In this document: positions 24,403 to 39,141 of the stretch, in pieces | Position numbering within the stretch: the first letter of the stretch is position 1 | Layout: every line of letters starts with the position of its first letter | Source: Candidatus Nealsoniibacteriota bacterium | GTDB taxonomy: Bacteria; Patescibacteriota; Minisyncoccia; Minisyncoccales; PWPS01 | Reading direction: 5' to 3' | DNA length: 43,366 nucleotides | Assembly: GCA_003551425.1 (NCBI GenBank) | Contig: PUMP01000001.1 | Coordinates: 1 to 43,366 of the forward strand | Notes under the pieces: model-generated | Seen by the model: the letters and a program-made list of their open reading frames with translations, nothing else | The model's database searches: none | Told to the model about the DNA's origin: nothing | Translations under genes and position numbers: made by a program

Positions 24403-25476
24403 TCAACTCTTGCAAGAGAATTCTTTTAATATATTGTATAAAGCTTCTAGACTGCTAATGCTTACCCACTCTTCTTTCCCATGGGTTCCTCCTCCGGAGG
24501 CGTTAGTTATAATCACGGGAATATTCTTCGCCGATAAGAAGCGGGCATCCGAGGCGGGAGGATATTTTTTAAATACAGGATCCTTTTGAATCATTTTCTT
24601 TAACGCCTCTTTGTATTTTAAAACATAAGGATTATCGGGAGAAGTATAGAAAGGAGCTCCGCTCGATATAACTTCCATCTCAATTTCTTTTCCTATAATT
24701 TTTTTTACTTCTTTTTGAATTTCTTCTTCCGTCCACTCTTCGGTAAACCGCAGATCTAGAAACATTTCTGCCTTTCCGGCAACCACATTCGTGGCAGTGC
24801 CTCCGCCAACCTTCCCTACATTTAAAGAATTTTTCCACTCTTTCTTGTTTTGCGGGTTGGGAAACCTGCTCCGCAATTTTGTATACGCATCTATTAACTT
24901 TTCAATCGCATTATCGCCTTCCCACGGACGTGCCCCGTGCGCTTCTTTCCCTCTGGCAACAAGCTTAAAATGAAGAATTCCTTTTTCGGAAAAAATAATA
25001 TCAAAATTATCTCCGCCATCAGGAATAAGGGCGACTTTACAGAAATAATTCTCTTCATTGAAAAGATAATTTATTCCGTCAAATCCTCCTGACTCTTCAT
25101 CGGTAGTAAGGATAAGACCTACGGAAGGTTTTTGAGGCGCCATATCTTTCATTAAATTCATTATTACGGCGCTTGGGCCTTTATTGTCTTTCGCTCCTCT
25201 ACCATAAAGTTTGTCTCCCTTTTTCTTGGGAACAAATTGATCTTTTTCCGCTTCCACTACATCCAAGTGCCCGATAAGAAAAAGTTCGGGAGAATCGTTT
25301 CCCTTAAAAGTTACAACCAAGCTATGTTTATCGTTCTTCTCAAATCTTTTCAAATTAAACTCTTCTCCGGAAAAAAAACTTTCACAAAAATCAGCTATTT
25401 CTTTTAATTTCTCGGGATTTTGTTTTGTCGACGGTATTTTTATCAAGTCTTCCGTCAATTTTAATATTTTTTTCAT
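24403..25476 (-). CDS. M20 family peptidase (ArgE/DapE/ACY1-like); ORF track start at 25485, but 25476 fits better
   Basis: LFLIGHLDVVEAE, LYGRGAKDNKGPSA, LTTDEESGGFDG, GKEAHGARPWEG; -10 TAGAAT at 25484-25489 overlaps the upstream ATG. Confidence 0.9.
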   Translation of the reverse strand: MKKILKLTEDLIKIPSTKQNPEKLKEIADFCESFFSGEEFNLKRFEKNDKHSLVVTFKGNDSPELFLIGHLDVVEAEKDQFVPKKKGDKLYGRGAKDNKGPSAVIMNLMKDMAPQKPSVGLILTTDEESGGFDGINYLFNEENYFCKVALIPDGGDNFDIIFSEKGILHFKLVARGKEAHGARPWEGDNAIEKLIDAYTKLRSRFPNPQNKKEWKNSLNVGKVGGGTATNVVAGKAEMFLDLRFTEEWTEEEIQKEVKKIIGKEIEMEVISSGAPFYTSPDNPYVLKYKEALKKMIQKDPVFKKYPPASDARFLSAKNIPVIITNASGGGTHGKEEWVSISSLEALYNILKEFSCKS

Positions 25477-25540
25477 TGATATCATTCTATAATCATTTTT
25501 TTATAATTCAAGAAAAAAGGAGCGATTTAACGCTCCCGAA

Positions 25541-26587
25541 TTATTTTTCACGCACCGCTCCTGCATAGGCAGTGCCTTGTGCAACATTTTGTGTTCCTCT
25601 TTCTCTGTATCTCTTCCATTCGTCTATTCTTACTACGGTATAAAGATACTTTAAATCAAACCCATCGGCCCAAAAAGACGGATTAAGGTCTAAAGAAATA
25701 TCTCCAACACCCGGCAAATAGACGCGAGGAAGCCACTTAACACGGAACACTCCGTAATCTTCTACTGGGGAAAGCTCTTCTACTTTTCTTTTCCACTCTT
25801 CAAGAGAGAGTTTCTCTCCGAAAATTATATTCTTCCCGCTCGTTCCACTACAAGGTTTTATAACTAGATTATCTTTGTTTTCCAGAGAGTGAGATGCACT
25901 GAGAGGAGCCCCTTCGGTCAAGTCCATTATCAATGATTTATTACCGGGACTTGTTTCCTCCGGAGAGTAAACGGTATTAAAGACCGTTCTCCTTCTTCTT
26001 TCGGAAAGAAACCATTTACTGTAGAAAGAAGAGAACTCGCTATATTCATTCCAGCGCACTCCTCCCCAACGCCAAATGGGAATACAATTGTCACGACCCT
26101 TTTTCAAGTCCACCATTTCCAGCTCTTTTTCAAGATTACGTCGAAAAGGCTCTTTCCATTCTTTCTTTACAATACCTTCCCCGGGGAAAAATAGTATCTT
26201 TTCACCGATCTCTTCTCTAATAACTTTTCCCAGCATAGCGACGGGAGCAGGATTTTCCGGATATAGCTCGGCGCAAGCCACAGTACATTCCGGATCTTCG
26301 GTATTAATCTCATATATTCCGTTTACTTCCACTTCTCCGAGATCATAAATGCCATTACCGATCAAGTTGGCGTGCGAAAGAAATCCGGGCACAAGGTCAA
26401 ATCTTATATGACCGCGGAAATTACCCCCTGTTTTCTTTGACACTTTTTCCCATATATCACGACACTCTCCAATCACTCTCTTCCGCTCTTCTTCTCCCAT
26501 AATAATCTCTCCGTTGAGCTTCTTTATCATAAGCTCTCCCAGCTTAGATCCTTCCTTAAATATGTTGCCGAAAAGAACAAGTTTCAT
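25541..26587 (-). CDS. ATP-grasp-like protein, paralog A
   Basis: NLVIKPCSGTSGKNIIFGE and SLDLNPSFWADG resemble ATP-grasp nucleotide/metal elements; paralogous to 26863-27912. Confidence 0.65.
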   Translation of the reverse strand: MKLVLFGNIFKEGSKLGELMIKKLNGEIIMGEEERKRVIGECRDIWEKVSKKTGGNFRGHIRFDLVPGFLSHANLIGNGIYDLGEVEVNGIYEINTEDPECTVACAELYPENPAPVAMLGKVIREEIGEKILFFPGEGIVKKEWKEPFRRNLEKELEMVDLKKGRDNCIPIWRWGGVRWNEYSEFSSFYSKWFLSERRRRTVFNTVYSPEETSPGNKSLIMDLTEGAPLSASHSLENKDNLVIKPCSGTSGKNIIFGEKLSLEEWKRKVEELSPVEDYGVFRVKWLPRVYLPGVGDISLDLNPSFWADGFDLKYLYTVVRIDEWKRYRERGTQNVAQGTAYAGAVREK

Positions 26588-26667
26588 TCTTATCCCTCCT
26601 TTTTATTTTTCCGGTTTTTCCCGGAGCTTTATTATCTTTTGATAACAAAAATCCGGGCCAAAACGAA

Positions 26668-26693
26668 AAAGCTCCCGGTTTTCGGGAGGCTTT
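26668..26693 (-). terminator. Attenuator terminator (segments 3:4) upstream of paralog A
   Basis: Minus strand AAAGCCTCCCGAAAACCGGGAGCTTTTT, stem CTCCCG/CGGGAG extended by AAAG/CTTT across one bulge. Confidence 0.85.
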
Positions 26694-26711
26694 CAGTATC
26701 TTTTTTGTTTT

Positions 26712-26801
26712 TTATATGCGCGAAAATTGAAAACCTCCCGAGTTAAGCTCGATAATAATAAGGACTACCAGAACAATATTCTTGGAAAGGTTTTCTATCA
26801 T
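26712..26801 (-). CDS. Leader peptide A: MIENLSKNIVLVVLIIIELNSGGFQFSRI (29 aa, Ile/Leu/Val-rich)
   Basis: ATG 7 nt after -10 box (leaderless); ORF spans attenuator segments 1 and 2 and stops before the terminator. Confidence 0.75.
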   Translation of the reverse strand: MIENLSKNIVLVVLIIIELNSGGFQFSRI

Positions 26802-26808
26802 ACTCACT

Positions 26809-26836
26809 ATTCTAGCTTTAAAAAATTTTTTGTCAA
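26809..26836 (-). promoter_or_regulatory. Promoter TTGACA-N16-TAGAAT of attenuator A
   Basis: TTGACA at 26836-26831, TAGAAT at 26814-26809, minus strand. Confidence 0.85.
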
Positions 26837-26841
26837 GAAGA

Positions 26842-26866
26842 AAGAGGCAGATAACTGCCTCTTTAA
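26842..26866 (-). terminator. Intrinsic terminator after paralog B
   Basis: AAAGAGGCAGTTATCTGCCTCTTTCTTC palindrome just after/overlapping the end of 26863-27912. Confidence 0.8.
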
Positions 26867-27912
26867 ATTTCCTTAAGAGTGTTCCCGTAACCTCCACCGG
26901 TAGTAACGTTAATAACGCCACTCTTTCGGTAATCATCCTGTTTCACGGCCCGCACTGGCGTGTAAAGATAGTGCAGGTCCTCTCCATTTGCAAAGAAAGA
27001 CGGACTGATGTCAATAACAATTTTTTCTCCTTTTACTTCAATGCCGGGAAGCCATTTAGCGCGAAAAGCGCCATAGCTTCCATCAGAAAGCTCGTATAAT
27101 TTGCTTTTCCACTCTTCTTTTAAAAAGTCTTTGCCAAAGAAGATTCCGTTACCGGAGCTTCCACGAAAAGGTTTTATTACCCATTCCTTGGGAGGAAAAG
27201 ACAGAATAAAGGGGATATTTCTCGGGAGAAGAACAACGTCTTTCGATGTCATAACGTGCCTTTTATCAGCCACATCATTTAGAGAAACAGTATTAAAGAC
27301 TCCGTTTTTCCTCTTGTAAAGCCACTCTTTGAAATCGTTTCCGAACTCCTCTTTTCCCGCAAGATCCACGTTTCCCCAACGCCAAAGAGAGCCGGGTGAT
27401 CTTTCCATCGCTTCTTTTTCAGAAAGGACGGAAAGTGCTAATCCTTCTTTTCTCATTTCTGAAATTAAGTGGTCTCCCCAAGAATCTTTAGCGACACACC
27501 TTCCTCGAACCATGCAAATCTCTCCGAATTGGTGTTTTAAAAACTTTGCTAACGTTCTCGGAGCTGATGGAGTTTCCTCTTTCATCTCCGGAAAAGCTGC
27601 GGCAAGAGAAGCGTCCGCAGCTACGCACTCGGGAGAGTGAGCATTTACTTCGTAAACATTATCGACACAAAGCGTTCCGATTCCTTCTCCATGGGTAAAG
27701 TGAGGAACAACATCAAATCTTATATGCCCACGGAAATTACCCCCCGTCTTCTTTGACACTTCTTTCCATACTTTTTCACAGTACTTTGTCACTGTTTCTT
27801 TTTCACTTTTTGTAATTGTGAAATAACCGCCGAGAACTCCGACAGGATTTCCGGCTACATGAAACAAGTCACTCTTAAGAAAAAGATCTCTTTTTAAAGG
27901 TACAAACTTCAT
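26863..27912 (-). CDS. ATP-grasp-like protein, paralog B
   Basis: EWVIKPFRGSSGNGIFFGK, VIDISPSFFANGEDLHYLYTPVRA; shares SKKTGGNFRGHIRFD.VP.F and WRWG.V with paralog A. Confidence 0.65.
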   Translation of the reverse strand: MKFVPLKRDLFLKSDLFHVAGNPVGVLGGYFTITKSEKETVTKYCEKVWKEVSKKTGGNFRGHIRFDVVPHFTHGEGIGTLCVDNVYEVNAHSPECVAADASLAAAFPEMKEETPSAPRTLAKFLKHQFGEICMVRGRCVAKDSWGDHLISEMRKEGLALSVLSEKEAMERSPGSLWRWGNVDLAGKEEFGNDFKEWLYKRKNGVFNTVSLNDVADKRHVMTSKDVVLLPRNIPFILSFPPKEWVIKPFRGSSGNGIFFGKDFLKEEWKSKLYELSDGSYGAFRAKWLPGIEVKGEKIVIDISPSFFANGEDLHYLYTPVRAVKQDDYRKSGVINVTTGGGYGNTLKEI

Positions 27913-27984
27913 TTTTAAACCCTCCCTTTCTCAGGACTTTTGTCCTGGGCTCTCTTTTTAATAAAAAAGAAGGCTCAAAACAAA

Positions 27985-28009
27985 AAACCTTCCCGCTTGG
28001 GGAAGGTTT
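27985..28009 (-). terminator. Attenuator terminator (segments 3:4) upstream of paralog B
   Basis: Minus strand AAACCTTCCCCAAGCGGGAAGGTTTTTTG, 10-bp stem and T tract. Confidence 0.88.
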
Positions 28010-28031
28010 CTTTCTTTTTTTTTACGTTATA

Positions 28032-28118
28032 TTAAAAATTAAAATACCTCCCAAGCAGGACTTTTTCAAAGCCTCCATAAAACGCAAAATAATTTGCTTG
28101 GAAAGTTTTTTCAATCAT
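28032..28118 (-). CDS. Leader peptide B: MIEKTFQANYFAFYGGFEKVLLGRYFNF (28 aa, Phe/Tyr-rich)
   Basis: ATG 8 nt after -10 box (leaderless); ORF spans segments 1 and 2; too short for ORF track. Confidence 0.75.
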   Translation of the reverse strand: MIEKTFQANYFAFYGGFEKVLLGRYFNF

Positions 28119-28126
28119 TGTTTCTT

Positions 28127-28154
28127 ATAATAATTATTCCTTCTATTTTGTCAA
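28127..28154 (-). promoter_or_regulatory. Promoter TTGACA-N16-TATTAT of attenuator B; -35 lies in last codons of the upstream CDS
   Basis: TTGACA at 28154-28149 (within AAC TTG ACA AAA TAG), TATTAT at 28132-28127, minus strand. Confidence 0.8.
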
Positions 28155-28904
28155 GTTTAATTTCATCTCTTCAACATAGCGCTTAACTACAACTTTTAAG
28201 TAGTCAGCCTCTTCTTTTTGTAATCCAAGAAGACATTCTTTTTTTAAGTCTTCTTCTTTCGAATTTTCCAGATAATCCAGGAATGTATGGAAATATTTAG
28301 GATGCCATATATACATTGTCACAAGTTCGTTGGCATCTTCTTGCGCTCTTACGGCAATCTCCGACATTTTATTGATAATGCTCTTGTCCTTATGGCGATC
28401 ATACTGAGGAGCGCTTCCCCAAATAGATAATCCTCTCTTTGGAAAATTATCTCTCTTTTGAAAACAAAAATTAAAGAGGTCGGAAAAACAGGAGTCAATC
28501 TTTCCTTGCAGTGATCTTTCGTGCCATAATTTCGGATCATCCACGCTTTCTCGGGAAAAAAGATACTCTTGATAAGCATGATTTACTTCATGAAGAAAAC
28601 GATATTTTTTAGTCTCCTCTCCGGGCTCAGGATAAAAGCTTTCACCAACTTCTTCATTTATTCCTACCCTAAAAATACAGTGTTTCCACTTTTCTTTAGG
28701 CATCCACTTTTCGGAAGTATAGATCTTTCTTGTACTGCTTGAGTAAATAAATCCCCACCCGTGCTTTTGCTCTTCAATCCCCTTAATATATCCATTTTCC
28801 ACTAAAAAAGCTCCCAATTCCGGTTCAAGGGTTCTGTTCTCGTCCCCCTCTATCGCTTTTCGGGGAACATTTAATATTTCTGTTACTTTTTCTTTCAAGT
28901 TCAT
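28143..28904 (-). CDS. Putative metallopeptidase-like protein with HEVNH motif
   Basis: KKYRFLHEVNHAYQEYLFSRE resembles a HExxH helix. Confidence 0.5.
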   Translation of the reverse strand: MNLKEKVTEILNVPRKAIEGDENRTLEPELGAFLVENGYIKGIEEQKHGWGFIYSSSTRKIYTSEKWMPKEKWKHCIFRVGINEEVGESFYPEPGEETKKYRFLHEVNHAYQEYLFSRESVDDPKLWHERSLQGKIDSCFSDLFNFCFQKRDNFPKRGLSIWGSAPQYDRHKDKSIINKMSEIAVRAQEDANELVTMYIWHPKYFHTFLDYLENSKEEDLKKECLLGLQKEEADYLKVVVKRYVEEMKLNLTK

Positions 28905-37929: not shown

Positions 37930-39141
37930 CTAGAAAGGATCTACCAACTGCCCCATAAAGAGAATCGTTTCCGTTTCCGCTTCTTCTATCGTAAAGAAGA
38001 ACGGCTTATTGAGCTCTATTATTGTAGGATCCATGGGTGCCGTCTCGACTCTCATCTCTACCGCCGTAGCCGCTGCTGCTTCCGTTCCTTCTTCATCAAC
38101 TTCCAGAAAAGAGCTGTGATAAACTTCGCCTATATATACGTTTTCTTCTAATTCTTCCGTATCCACCATTCTTGAAAAGTCAGCGTCATATTTATTAAAA
38201 GCATCCACCATCCCCATGATTTGTAAGGTCTCCGATAATTTAATGTCTTCTTCCAGCTTAAACTTAGGCATACGAAGAATTATCTCTCCCTTATTTGTCG
38301 GTTTTGCATTTCTTAAAGTCTCTCTGTCAAGATCCCTGTAAAAATCAGATAAATTTCCGCCAATCGGCATAAAGGCGTGAAAGAGATAGTCTCCGTCTTT
38401 GTACTCTAAAGTTACCGCCTTCATGTCTTCACTTACTTTGTAACGATAATCGGCTTTATTTTCCATCATCTCTACCTCCTTTTCTTCTGTGCCGTAAAAG
38501 ATTCTTTCCGTAGTATCTTCCTTATCAAATTCTTGCTGCCAGGTCCCTTTAAAATAAATGGCGTTTACCAGATAAGCGATAACGTCTCTCTCTATCGGTC
38601 CGGGATCAATAATCTCTTCTATTTTGTCTTTTGTCTGCTCTCTTACCCATCGGTTGATATTCTCCCCTGTTTCGGGAAGACTCTTAAGTTCGGCCTCAAA
38701 ATATTTCACTCCATCATCCTTATAACCCTCTAAAAAGGGAATATCGTCTCTTAGGAAGAAAGAGTTGGCAATAGAGACTTCCGTTTCTTGAGAGATGTTC
38801 TCAAGATATCTTTTAAGTCCCAGCGCTTCTTCTTTCAAGCTCTCCTCTTCTGCTCCAGAAAGGACAAGCACATCCTCCATCTCCTCTTTTGTTTTTCCTT
38901 CCGATCCCATATGGGCGAGCATGAGAGCGGTATGAATGCTATAGGGCGAGATAAAAGAATTTTCTCCCTCCTCTACTATCTCTTTAAAGCTTGCCAGAGC
39001 AAAATCATTTTTGCGAGAAGAAAGATCGCCAAGCTCTTCCGGAGACATAATCTCTATTTCTTCCTCAAGAGAAATCCAGAGATAAGCTCCTGCTAAAGAA
39101 AGAGCCATTAAAAATATAAATAATAAAATTGCTTTTTTCAT
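37930..39141 (-). CDS. Serpin family protein, membrane-anchored or secreted
   Basis: NSFISPYSIHTALMLAHMGSEGKTKEEM; LVNAIYFKGTWQQEFDKEDT; FLEVDEEGTEAAAATAVEMRVETAPMDPTIIELNKPFFFTI; N-terminal hydrophobic segment. Confidence 0.93.
   Translation of the reverse strand: MKKAILLFIFLMALSLAGAYLWISLEEEIEIMSPEELGDLSSRKNDFALASFKEIVEEGENSFISPYSIHTALMLAHMGSEGKTKEEMEDVLVLSGAEEESLKEEALGLKRYLENISQETEVSIANSFFLRDDIPFLEGYKDDGVKYFEAELKSLPETGENINRWVREQTKDKIEEIIDPGPIERDVIAYLVNAIYFKGTWQQEFDKEDTTERIFYGTEEKEVEMMENKADYRYKVSEDMKAVTLEYKDGDYLFHAFMPIGGNLSDFYRDLDRETLRNAKPTNKGEIILRMPKFKLEEDIKLSETLQIMGMVDAFNKYDADFSRMVDTEELEENVYIGEVYHSSFLEVDEEGTEAAAATAVEMRVETAPMDPTIIELNKPFFFTIEEAETETILFMGQLVDPF

Follow-up and report, generated by a model that had tools for sequence, protein, structure and literature searches.

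What do two paralogous genes of a genome-reduced patescibacterium gain from lying behind two short hydrophobic leader peptides, and which signal would each leader read? Both genes lie on the minus strand of a 43,366-nucleotide stretch of DNA from Candidatus Nealsoniibacteriota (the window). A sequence-only reading had proposed that they are controlled by parallel attenuators with different amino acid inputs, and the present analysis follows up that proposal.

Architecture of the locus

Listed in order of transcription, the elements of the locus are as follows.

28127..28154, minus strand: promoter of copy A, TTGACA-N16-TATTAT; read by eye, the N16 spacing recurs in the leaders of relatives
28032..28118, minus strand: leader ORF A, MIEKTFQANYFAFYGGFEKVLLGRYFNF and stop, Phe/Tyr-rich, without SD sequence; Phe-run leaders in relatives
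28095..28106, minus strand: segment 1 of attenuator A, ACTTTCCAAGCA, able to pair with segment 2 (computed fold)
28046..28057, minus strand: segment 2 of attenuator A, TGCTTGGGAGGT, antiterminator arm (shuffle test and ribosome-position model)
27982..28008, minus strand: terminator A, segments 3 and 4 with U tract, −13.4 kcal/mol (computed fold)
27932..27947, minus strand: post-terminator hairpin of A, CAGGAC-AAAA-GTCCTG (sequence and fold); similar ones in several, not all, relatives
26863..27912, minus strand: copy A, circularly permuted ATP-grasp ligase-like protein, 349 aa (AF2, Foldseek, Cp1B profile match)
26809..26836, minus strand: promoter of copy B, TTGACA-N16-TAGAAT (sequence)
26712..26801, minus strand: leader ORF B, MIENLSKNIVLVVLIIIELNSGGFQFSRI and stop, Ile/Leu/Val-rich, without SD sequence; ILV-run leaders in relatives
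26729..26742, minus strand: segment 2 of attenuator B, CTCGGGAGGTTTTC, antiterminator arm (shuffle test and ribosome-position model)
26666..26693, minus strand: terminator B, segments 3 and 4 with U tract, −12.4 kcal/mol (computed fold)
26611..26657, minus strand: post-terminator hairpin of B, CCGG (sequence and fold)
25541..26587, minus strand: copy B, paralogous ATP-grasp ligase-like protein, 348 aa (AF2, Foldseek)
24403..25485, minus strand: M20 deacylase/peptidase (DapE/ArgE-like), with a terminator between it and copy B

The anatomy ascribed to both copies, namely a TTGACA-N16 promoter, leader ORF, segment 2, terminator, post-terminator hairpin and strong SD sequence, was recovered in full on the minus strand. 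The region 5′ of copy A runs from the terminator through the post-terminator hairpin and GGGAGGG to the ligase gene, that of copy B from the terminator through the CCGG hairpin and AGGAGGG, and both strong SD sequences belong to the ligase genes. The leader ATGs are located 7–8 nt past the −10 box, so the leaders probably start leaderless. As to the segment order, 2, 3 and 4 stood in both copies; a clear segment 1 was seen in the window's copy A alone, so that most leaders appear to be switches with two states, 2:3 or 3:4.

Compared with chance, the leader regions fold with z scores of −4.0 (A) and −4.2 (B). Pairing of segments 2 and 3 was equalled by 18 of 1000 dinucleotide shuffles in leader A and by none of 1000 in leader B. 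The bias claimed for the peptides, F/Y-rich in A and ILV-rich in B, is indeed present. Composition alone is weak for leader A (5.5% of chance small ORFs in the same genome reach 5 F/Y in 10) and strong for leader B (0.1% of chance small ORFs are as rich). Nevertheless, the bias of both is made secure by the relatives, where it recurs as Phe and ILV runs.

Conservation of the attenuators

Homologs were found in 7 of 247 genomes within the order, the relatives carrying the label Candidatus Nealsonbacteria, which fits the CPR origin guessed in the sequence-only reading. The set comprises 13 proteins, 12 of which have a readable upstream region, from seven genomes. The objection that most homologs might lack a leader or terminator was checked, and all 12 readable homologs carry the same device of leader run and terminator. 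Parallel attenuators with different amino acid inputs on paralogous enzymes are thus a kept feature. The other A-type leaders contain Phe runs such as KFFFFFFR, B-type leaders contain ILV runs, and one distant homolog has a Leu run. The F/Y richness noted for leader A holds for the window leader, its relatives being Phe-only without Tyr. From genome to genome, the homogeneous runs keep their position in leaders that otherwise vary.

In every one of the 12 leaders the complementarity of segments 2 and 3 exceeds that of dinucleotide shuffles (at most 23 of 1000 as good), and the leader stop lies 18 to 27 nt 5′ of the terminator. A ribosome-position model gave a terminator probability of about 0 to 0.3 with the ribosome on the run and of at least 0.93 with the ribosome at the stop in 8 of 12 leaders, including both window leaders. 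In the other four (G004_B, G011_A, G013_A and G013_B), equilibrium still favours the terminator at many or all ribosome positions along the run; these leaders would need kinetic trapping of the 2:3 pairing. The post-terminator hairpin was dismissed as a universal part, being absent or different in several relatives. When 645 kb of G000 (about 30 kb of this genome lie outside the scan) and 608 kb of G002 were scanned for attenuators, both ligase leaders were among the best candidates, together with a Val/Leu leader preceding a non-coding RNA. Computation thus establishes the RNA anatomy and its conservation, and we consider it very likely that copies A and B are each under a ribosome-mediated transcription attenuator.

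Leader composition had been expected to segregate with the paralog clades. This is true for most proteins; the tree, however, forces at least two switches of leader type. Copy B of G002, which has an ILV leader, groups with the Phe copies, and the G069 protein, which has a Phe leader, groups with the ILV copies. The AU test spoke against a single clade of B copies plus G167 (p = 0.034) and against a single clade of Phe-leader proteins (p = 0.027). Even so, wherever a genome contains two copies, one has a Phe leader and the other an ILV leader.

The ligase-like proteins and their neighbours

Copies A and B share 36% protein identity, and their AF2 models have a pLDDT of 89 and 90.8, respectively. 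Foldseek matched copy A to glutathione synthetase and Cp1B, and copy B to the putative glutathionylspermidine synthase 3n6x, GspS, YjfC and Cp1B; the E values to glutathione/glutathionylspermidine synthetases were 1e-10 for A and 1e-9 for B. TM-scores by query of about 0.46–0.57 indicate proteins related to the Cp1B/GspS type but divergent from it. Copy A also has a profile match to Cp1B (E 2.4e-5), the sequence match spanning only about 37 residues. Residues R65, D67, E88 and N90 of copy A (R-x-D / E-x-N) are invariant in 13/13 proteins and correspond, by spacing and motif rather than structural superposition, to R139, D141, E163 and N165 of Cp1B, which matter according to mutational analysis (PMC12568646). 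No Pfam model matched the ligases at curated cut-offs; the viral contigs searched held no relatives, and a viral structure library gave no match. Judged by modelled fold and motif, copies A and B are likely amide-bond-forming, circularly permuted ATP-grasp ligases of the Cp1B/GspS/YjfC kind.

Cp1B couples hydrophobic amino acids with an acid to give E-64 precursors and prefers aliphatic amino acids, whereas Cp2B prefers aromatic ones (PMC12568646). By analogy with Cp1B, the amino acid sensed by each leader might also be the substrate of the ligase behind it, an assignment that we make tentatively and would not yet call probable. A comparison of Phe-leader with ILV-leader proteins yielded 11 separating columns, the highest number among 36 labellings that differ from the clade labelling by a one-for-one swap; as the next-best labellings reached 10 and 10, these columns are not evidence of specificity residues.

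The M20 gene adjoins the B copy in all six genomes with a B copy and was absent from the 10 non-carrier relatives searched. Its product matches PF01546 (1.5e-24), scores under the respective cut-offs of all NCBIfam models listed and conserves H73, D75, D100, E130, E131, D156 and H335, which in this family are metal-site residues. Most likely, this linked enzyme hydrolyses an amide of the kind made by the ligases. In G069 the Phe copy is located 3′ of pheST, in G011 and G013 3′ of a prephenate dehydratase gene. Prephenate dehydratase genes also occur in the non-carriers G010 and G012, apparently behind a similar upstream gene, so this adjacency may reflect a mere insertion site.

IlvD and chorismate synthase, one marker enzyme per pathway, were not found in the draft genomes of the carriers. 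The carriers are therefore probably auxotrophic for Phe and branched-chain amino acids, and the attenuators would not serve as feedback on biosynthesis. This agrees with the surprise voiced in the sequence-only reading at meeting attenuators where biosynthesis is missing. Prephenate dehydratase was rejected as proof of Phe biosynthesis, because carriers lack chorismate synthase and none of the inspected prephenate dehydratase genes has a Phe attenuator.

Proposed mechanism and alternatives

We propose two separately transcribed paralogous amide ligase genes with one attenuator each. A shortage of charged tRNA-Phe for copy A, in this genome perhaps of charged tRNA-Tyr as well, or of charged Ile/Leu/Val-tRNA for copy B would stall the ribosome on the codon run; segment 2 would then pair with segment 3, the terminator would be blocked and the ligase made. 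With good supply, the ribosome would reach the stop past segment 2 and mask this segment, and the 3:4 terminator would end transcription. We infer that charged tRNA would exert this control in vivo. The most likely reaction of the ligases is the coupling of a hydrophobic amino acid, perhaps the sensed one, to an acyl donor via an acyl-phosphate, as in Cp1B. Taken as a whole, two attenuators controlling paralogous amide ligases are a probable explanation of the locus. As to purpose, a first guess, and a doubtful one, is that an auxotroph would in this way capture or retain membrane-permeable amino acids that are in short supply. Equally speculative is a starvation-controlled cycle of ligation and release for scarce hydrophobic amino acids, with a switch and a ligase per amino acid class, shared release by the M20 enzyme and a third, Val/Leu switch on a free-standing structured RNA. 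A ligase that consumes the very amino acid in short supply is an odd logic, which counts against a starvation role.

This oddity also weighs on the idea that an amide, E-64-like or a dipeptide, is released towards host or competitors on starvation, as its synthesis would use up the limiting amino acid. The chemistry of Cp1B and its paralogs of aliphatic versus aromatic preference (PMC12568646) and the accessory distribution of the module favour such a product, but the annotated neighbours include no recognisable epoxysuccinate synthase-like or export gene, and we regard such a product as unlikely. Under a detoxification role, uncharged tRNA would induce the ligases although the amino acid itself need not be their substrate: the ligases might conjugate inhibitors of PheRS or Ile/Leu/ValRS or toxic analogues, the attenuators sensing the resulting uncharged tRNA. 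The patchy spread (7 of 247 genomes) and the Phe copy beside pheST in G069 are consistent with this. However, resistance or export genes were not recognised beside the module, and the M20 deacylase that the module keeps would reverse the conjugation, which makes detoxification quite unlikely.

Two further explanations concern the leaders themselves. Any ribosome stop 5′ of segment 2 would give readthrough, and leader peptides are reported to control some antibiotic resistance genes, such as msrD (PMC10314930), so the attenuators might answer general ribosome stalling, for instance by an antibiotic, rather than one amino acid. Distinct runs of F, ILV or L kept at one position within otherwise changing leaders render this improbable. 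The ILV and F runs also look like membrane segments; the leader ORFs might then act as small hydrophobic proteins, the terminators being incidental. Yet in all 12 cases the leader region is complementary to the terminator arm and the stop lies 18 to 27 nt ahead of the terminator, which makes this reading very improbable. The preferred explanation remains attenuation by amino acid-specific stalling.

Relation to known systems

The E. coli trp, phe and ilv operons are classical cases of ribosome-mediated attenuation, and textbooks present such amino acid attenuators as feedback control of biosynthesis. Further examples are Listeria Rli60 upstream of ilv-leu (PMC5864092) and those of Actinobacteria (PMC1262725). 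The present attenuators share with all of these the leader ORF with its regulatory codon run, the alternative 2:3 and 3:4 hairpins and the intrinsic terminator before the gene. In contrast to amino acid operon attenuators, they precede ATP-grasp ligase-like genes rather than biosynthesis or aaRS genes, occur in organisms without IlvD and chorismate synthase, serve two paralogs with different inputs, and have leaders without SD sequence and a mostly unclear segment 1. The Rfam Phe_leader (RF01859) gave a weak full-length match to leader A of 37.6 bits (gathering score 55) and an equal one (38.9) on the opposite strand; being sub-threshold and strand-symmetric, it does not make leader A a member. 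The entire window gave no Rfam match at the gathering threshold, and a T-box riboswitch was discarded, none appearing among the permissive matches either.

The ligases resemble Cp1B/Cp2B (PMC12568646, PDB 9cjn) in fold and R-x-D / E-x-N motif, and the aliphatic versus aromatic paralogs parallel the ILV versus Phe leaders. Unlike Cp1B, they share only about 12% identity with it over the structural alignment, have 350 versus about 500 residues, occur in other organisms and have no epoxysuccinate pathway recognised nearby. The fold is also that of glutathionylspermidine synthetase, YgiC/YjfC and eukaryotic-type glutathione synthetase, and the YExN stretch aligns at low probability with VYEYN (328–332) of E. 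coli Gss; unlike this group, the ligases lack a Pfam match at curated cut-offs. LysW-ArgX/LysX-LysK systems pair an ATP-grasp ligase with an M20 family hydrolase, and ArgX and LysX are weak Foldseek matches of the ligase. The present ligases, however, belong to another ATP-grasp subgroup, and we know of no attenuators of this kind for the LysW systems.

No paper on attenuation in Patescibacteria was found in the open-access literature. The switch type is classical; its use on ATP-grasp ligases in auxotrophs appears undescribed. Here, attenuators are kept specific where marker enzymes for the sensed amino acids are missing, and they precede enzymes that would presumably use up amino acids. Should the regulation be confirmed, the leaders would reveal which amino acid an uncharacterised enzyme family handles; this would lead straight to the substrates of such ATP-grasp enzymes and offer insight into the ways in which genome-reduced Patescibacteria endure amino acid scarcity.

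A further attenuator

A Val/Leu attenuator of the same design precedes a structured non-coding RNA in two related genomes. A small peptide encoded in this RNA was considered and rejected, its start codon, inspected by eye, not being kept in G009. A covariance model of the RNA gave convincing matches only in G002 and G009.

Tandem ligase-like genes under predicted parallel attenuators

A description of tandem paralogs behind parallel leaders, made in the sequence-only reading, proved accurate for both copies when compared with the window sequence. The genes are:

27912..26863, minus strand: copy A, ATP-grasp ligase-like paralog, in tandem with copy B
26587..25541, minus strand: copy B, ATP-grasp ligase-like paralog, in tandem with copy A
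25485..24403, minus strand: M20-type hydrolase, following copies A and B

The two ligase-like proteins are 36% identical in a protein comparison. Each ligase gene is preceded, in order, by a TTGACA-N16 promoter, a leader ORF, an intrinsic terminator, a hairpin and a strong SD sequence. Both leaders start without an SD sequence at an ATG 7-8 nt past the -10 box and read, up to the stop codon, MIEKTFQANYFAFYGGFEKVLLGRYFNF (leader A, Phe/Tyr-rich) and MIENLSKNIVLVVLIIIELNSGGFQFSRI (leader B, rich in Ile, Leu and Val, ILV). Hairpins with T runs 3′ of copies A and B in the window, and 5′ of the M20 gene in relatives, suggest that the three genes are transcribed separately. When the transcript of leader A is folded (27880-28010), the ligase SD region pairs with a stretch past the terminator, possibly a second, translational layer of control. 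An ORF immediately upstream of the module (28143-28904) carries an HExxH motif (HEVNHAYQE) without a Pfam match, and the relatives' stretches show no counterpart next to the module. Another ORF (37930-39141), its translation judged by eye, resembles a serpin-type protease inhibitor, unusual in so small a genome.

Both leader regions fold better than shuffled sequences (z = -4.0 for A, -4.2 for B). Complementarity of the leader to the 5′ arm of the terminator was equalled by 18 of 1000 dinucleotide shuffles for A and by 0 of 1000 for B. Composition taken alone is weak for leader A (5.5% of the small ORFs of these AT-rich genomes have five F/Y in ten residues); for leader B, matched by 0.1%, it is strong. 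It is the relatives that decide whether more than chance is involved.

Conservation of paired inputs

Ligase homologs occur in 7 of the 247 genomes searched in the order, the window's own counted, in one further genome of the class (G386) and, as a single weak match, in the rest of the phylum sample. Named records among these relatives are Candidatus Nealsonbacteria, and we tentatively take their sample codes to stand for soda lake sediments (cf. PMC6146748).

Five genomes of the window's family possess the ligase pair, each with one Phe and one ILV leader. Up to the stop codon, the relatives' A-type leaders read MKNILRKNFFFFRTDLAKSGRLF, MLKSRITKFFFFFFRNPQKSGRFSS, MKISGKNFFEFFFFTDKVSGDFCD and MKNFPKTKEFFGFFFTELGSGGFS, the B-type leaders MKTHPKNILLIVLIIILEGYSGGFRMIQ, MKENFLKNIIILIVLIILDKNSGGFQFSKI, MKTFRRFLIIVLLIITEPISGRFLLGDL and METSGNLFLIIMLIVTELSSGGFRFEKL. 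The only ligase copy of G069, directly 3′ of pheS-pheT, has a Phe leader (containing RFFLAFSFFTFFPKGG). The G386 ligase has a Leu leader (containing ILLLSLLLGLLKG). The ligase of G167 is truncated by a contig end; pairing of segments 2 and 3, the antiterminator, was significant against shuffles in all 12 readable leaders.

Leader type largely tracks the protein tree, with two exceptions: copy B of G002 (ILV) groups with A proteins and the G069 ligase (Phe) with B proteins. AU tests argued against a single clade of B copies plus G167 (p = 0.034) and against a single clade of Phe-leader proteins (p = 0.027), modest values given the long branches. Tree and AU tests break the leader-type clades, so that having one Phe and one ILV leader per pair is, on these sequences, more stable than the descent of the copies.

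Modelled switching mechanism

A ribosome was placed at each codon of the 12 leaders in turn and the free downstream RNA was folded. For 8 of them, including both from the window, the terminator (segments 3:4) had a probability of about 0 to 0.3 while the ribosome occupied the regulatory run, and of at least 0.93 once it had reached the stop codon. The exceptions were G004_B, G011_A, G013_A and G013_B, whose terminator was still likely at equilibrium across much or all of the run. Here, the modelled pairing of segments 2 and 3 precedes transcription of segment 4, and thus these leaders would depend on folding order. The modelled mechanism is classical ribosome-mediated attenuation, ON under shortage: lack of Phe, or of Ile/Leu/Val, would lead to production of the matching ligase. 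A clear segment 1, able to pair with segment 2, is missing from most leaders, and therefore lack of translation alone would not force termination. In both copies of G011, the attenuator terminator is separated from the gene by a long structured insert; the two inserts resemble each other (L015 10835-11190 and 12510-12990) and are probably a repeat element.

Ligase-like proteins, hydrolase and apparently missing biosynthesis

Pfam and NCBIfam searches of the ligase proteins returned nothing above cut-off. Confident AlphaFold2 models (pLDDT 89 for A, 91 for B) matched glutathione synthetase, glutathionylspermidine synthetase, YgiC/YjfC and Cp1B, an amide ligase of E-64 biosynthesis, in Foldseek. 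Cp1B was also the only informative solved relative by sequence profile (E 2.4e-5 over 37 residues). An RxD...YExN motif (R65, D67, E88, N90) is invariant across the homologs and has the same spacing as R139, D141, E163 and N165 of Cp1B, mutation of which reduces or abolishes activity (PMC12568646). Hydrophobic amino acids are ligated both by Cp1B, which prefers aliphatic ones, and by its paralog Cp2B, which prefers aromatic ones (PMC12568646). The parallel to the ILV and Phe leaders is suggestive, not proof.

Wherever a B copy occurs (six genomes), the M20 hydrolase follows it. A search for this type at 1e-20 was negative in G069, in G386 and in ten genomes of the same family that lack the ligases. 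Among solved structures, a protein named only peptidase M20/M25/M40, and DapE, are closest to it. In G386, the ligase lies between an N-formylglutamate amidohydrolase (PF05013) and a second ORF, ATP-grasp-like by eye and without a Pfam match (L030 6890-7684, 9375-10670); an N-acyl amino acid hydrolase once more adjoins the ligase.

IlvD, a marker of branched-chain amino acid (BCAA) biosynthesis, was not found in any of 18 genomes checked, nor chorismate synthase, the marker for Phe, in any genome with ligase homologs. Both families were detected in 14 of 14 control genomes. The carriers are therefore probably unable to make the amino acids sensed. Prephenate dehydratase is present without detectable chorismate synthase in G010, G011, G012, G013 and G014 (including loci L016 2312-3142 and L015 9838-10671).

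With the biosynthetic pathways apparently missing, the purpose of the response must lie in uptake, retention, release, defence or signalling. The reading we favour, though with little confidence, is that the ligase couples an acyl donor to the sensed amino acid and the M20 hydrolase reverses this, which would retain membrane-permeable amino acids. Alternatively, the ligases might detoxify synthetase inhibitors, or the module might produce a secreted amide. The switches may also have a signalling role, for which the BCAA attenuator Rli60 of Listeria is a precedent: it can serve host sensing, the bacterium being kept partly auxotrophic (PMC5864092). The type of switch is already known. Four features appear undescribed in the open-access literature searched: the genes targeted, the setting in auxotrophs, the pairing of inputs on paralogs, and the lineage.

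Further candidate switches

Leader, terminator, complementarity and promoter were scanned for in 645 kb of the window's genome (about 30 kb were missed) and 608 kb of G002. In each genome, both ligase leaders rank among the best candidates, as does one Val/Leu leader in G002. Among the weaker ones there may be a few more switches, and matches whose leaders are G- or K-rich and of low complexity are probably due to chance. The Val/Leu leaders, MNHSVKAINVVVVVVLLLKKGALLC and MKEKINQSLSIVVVVLLLRRGALFF up to the stop codon, belong to a third attenuator, built like those of the ligases, in G002 and G009:

L038 1705-2015 (G002:C1 about 51705-52015): Val/Leu attenuator and RNA
L152 1468-1790 (G009): Val/Leu attenuator and RNA

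No ligase match was found in G009, and an Rfam search of the controlled RNA gave no family at its cut-off. The attenuator precedes not a protein gene but this RNA, which is strongly structured, about 170 nt long and has a terminator of its own; between G002 and G009 the RNA shows 10 compensatory pairs and no broken one.
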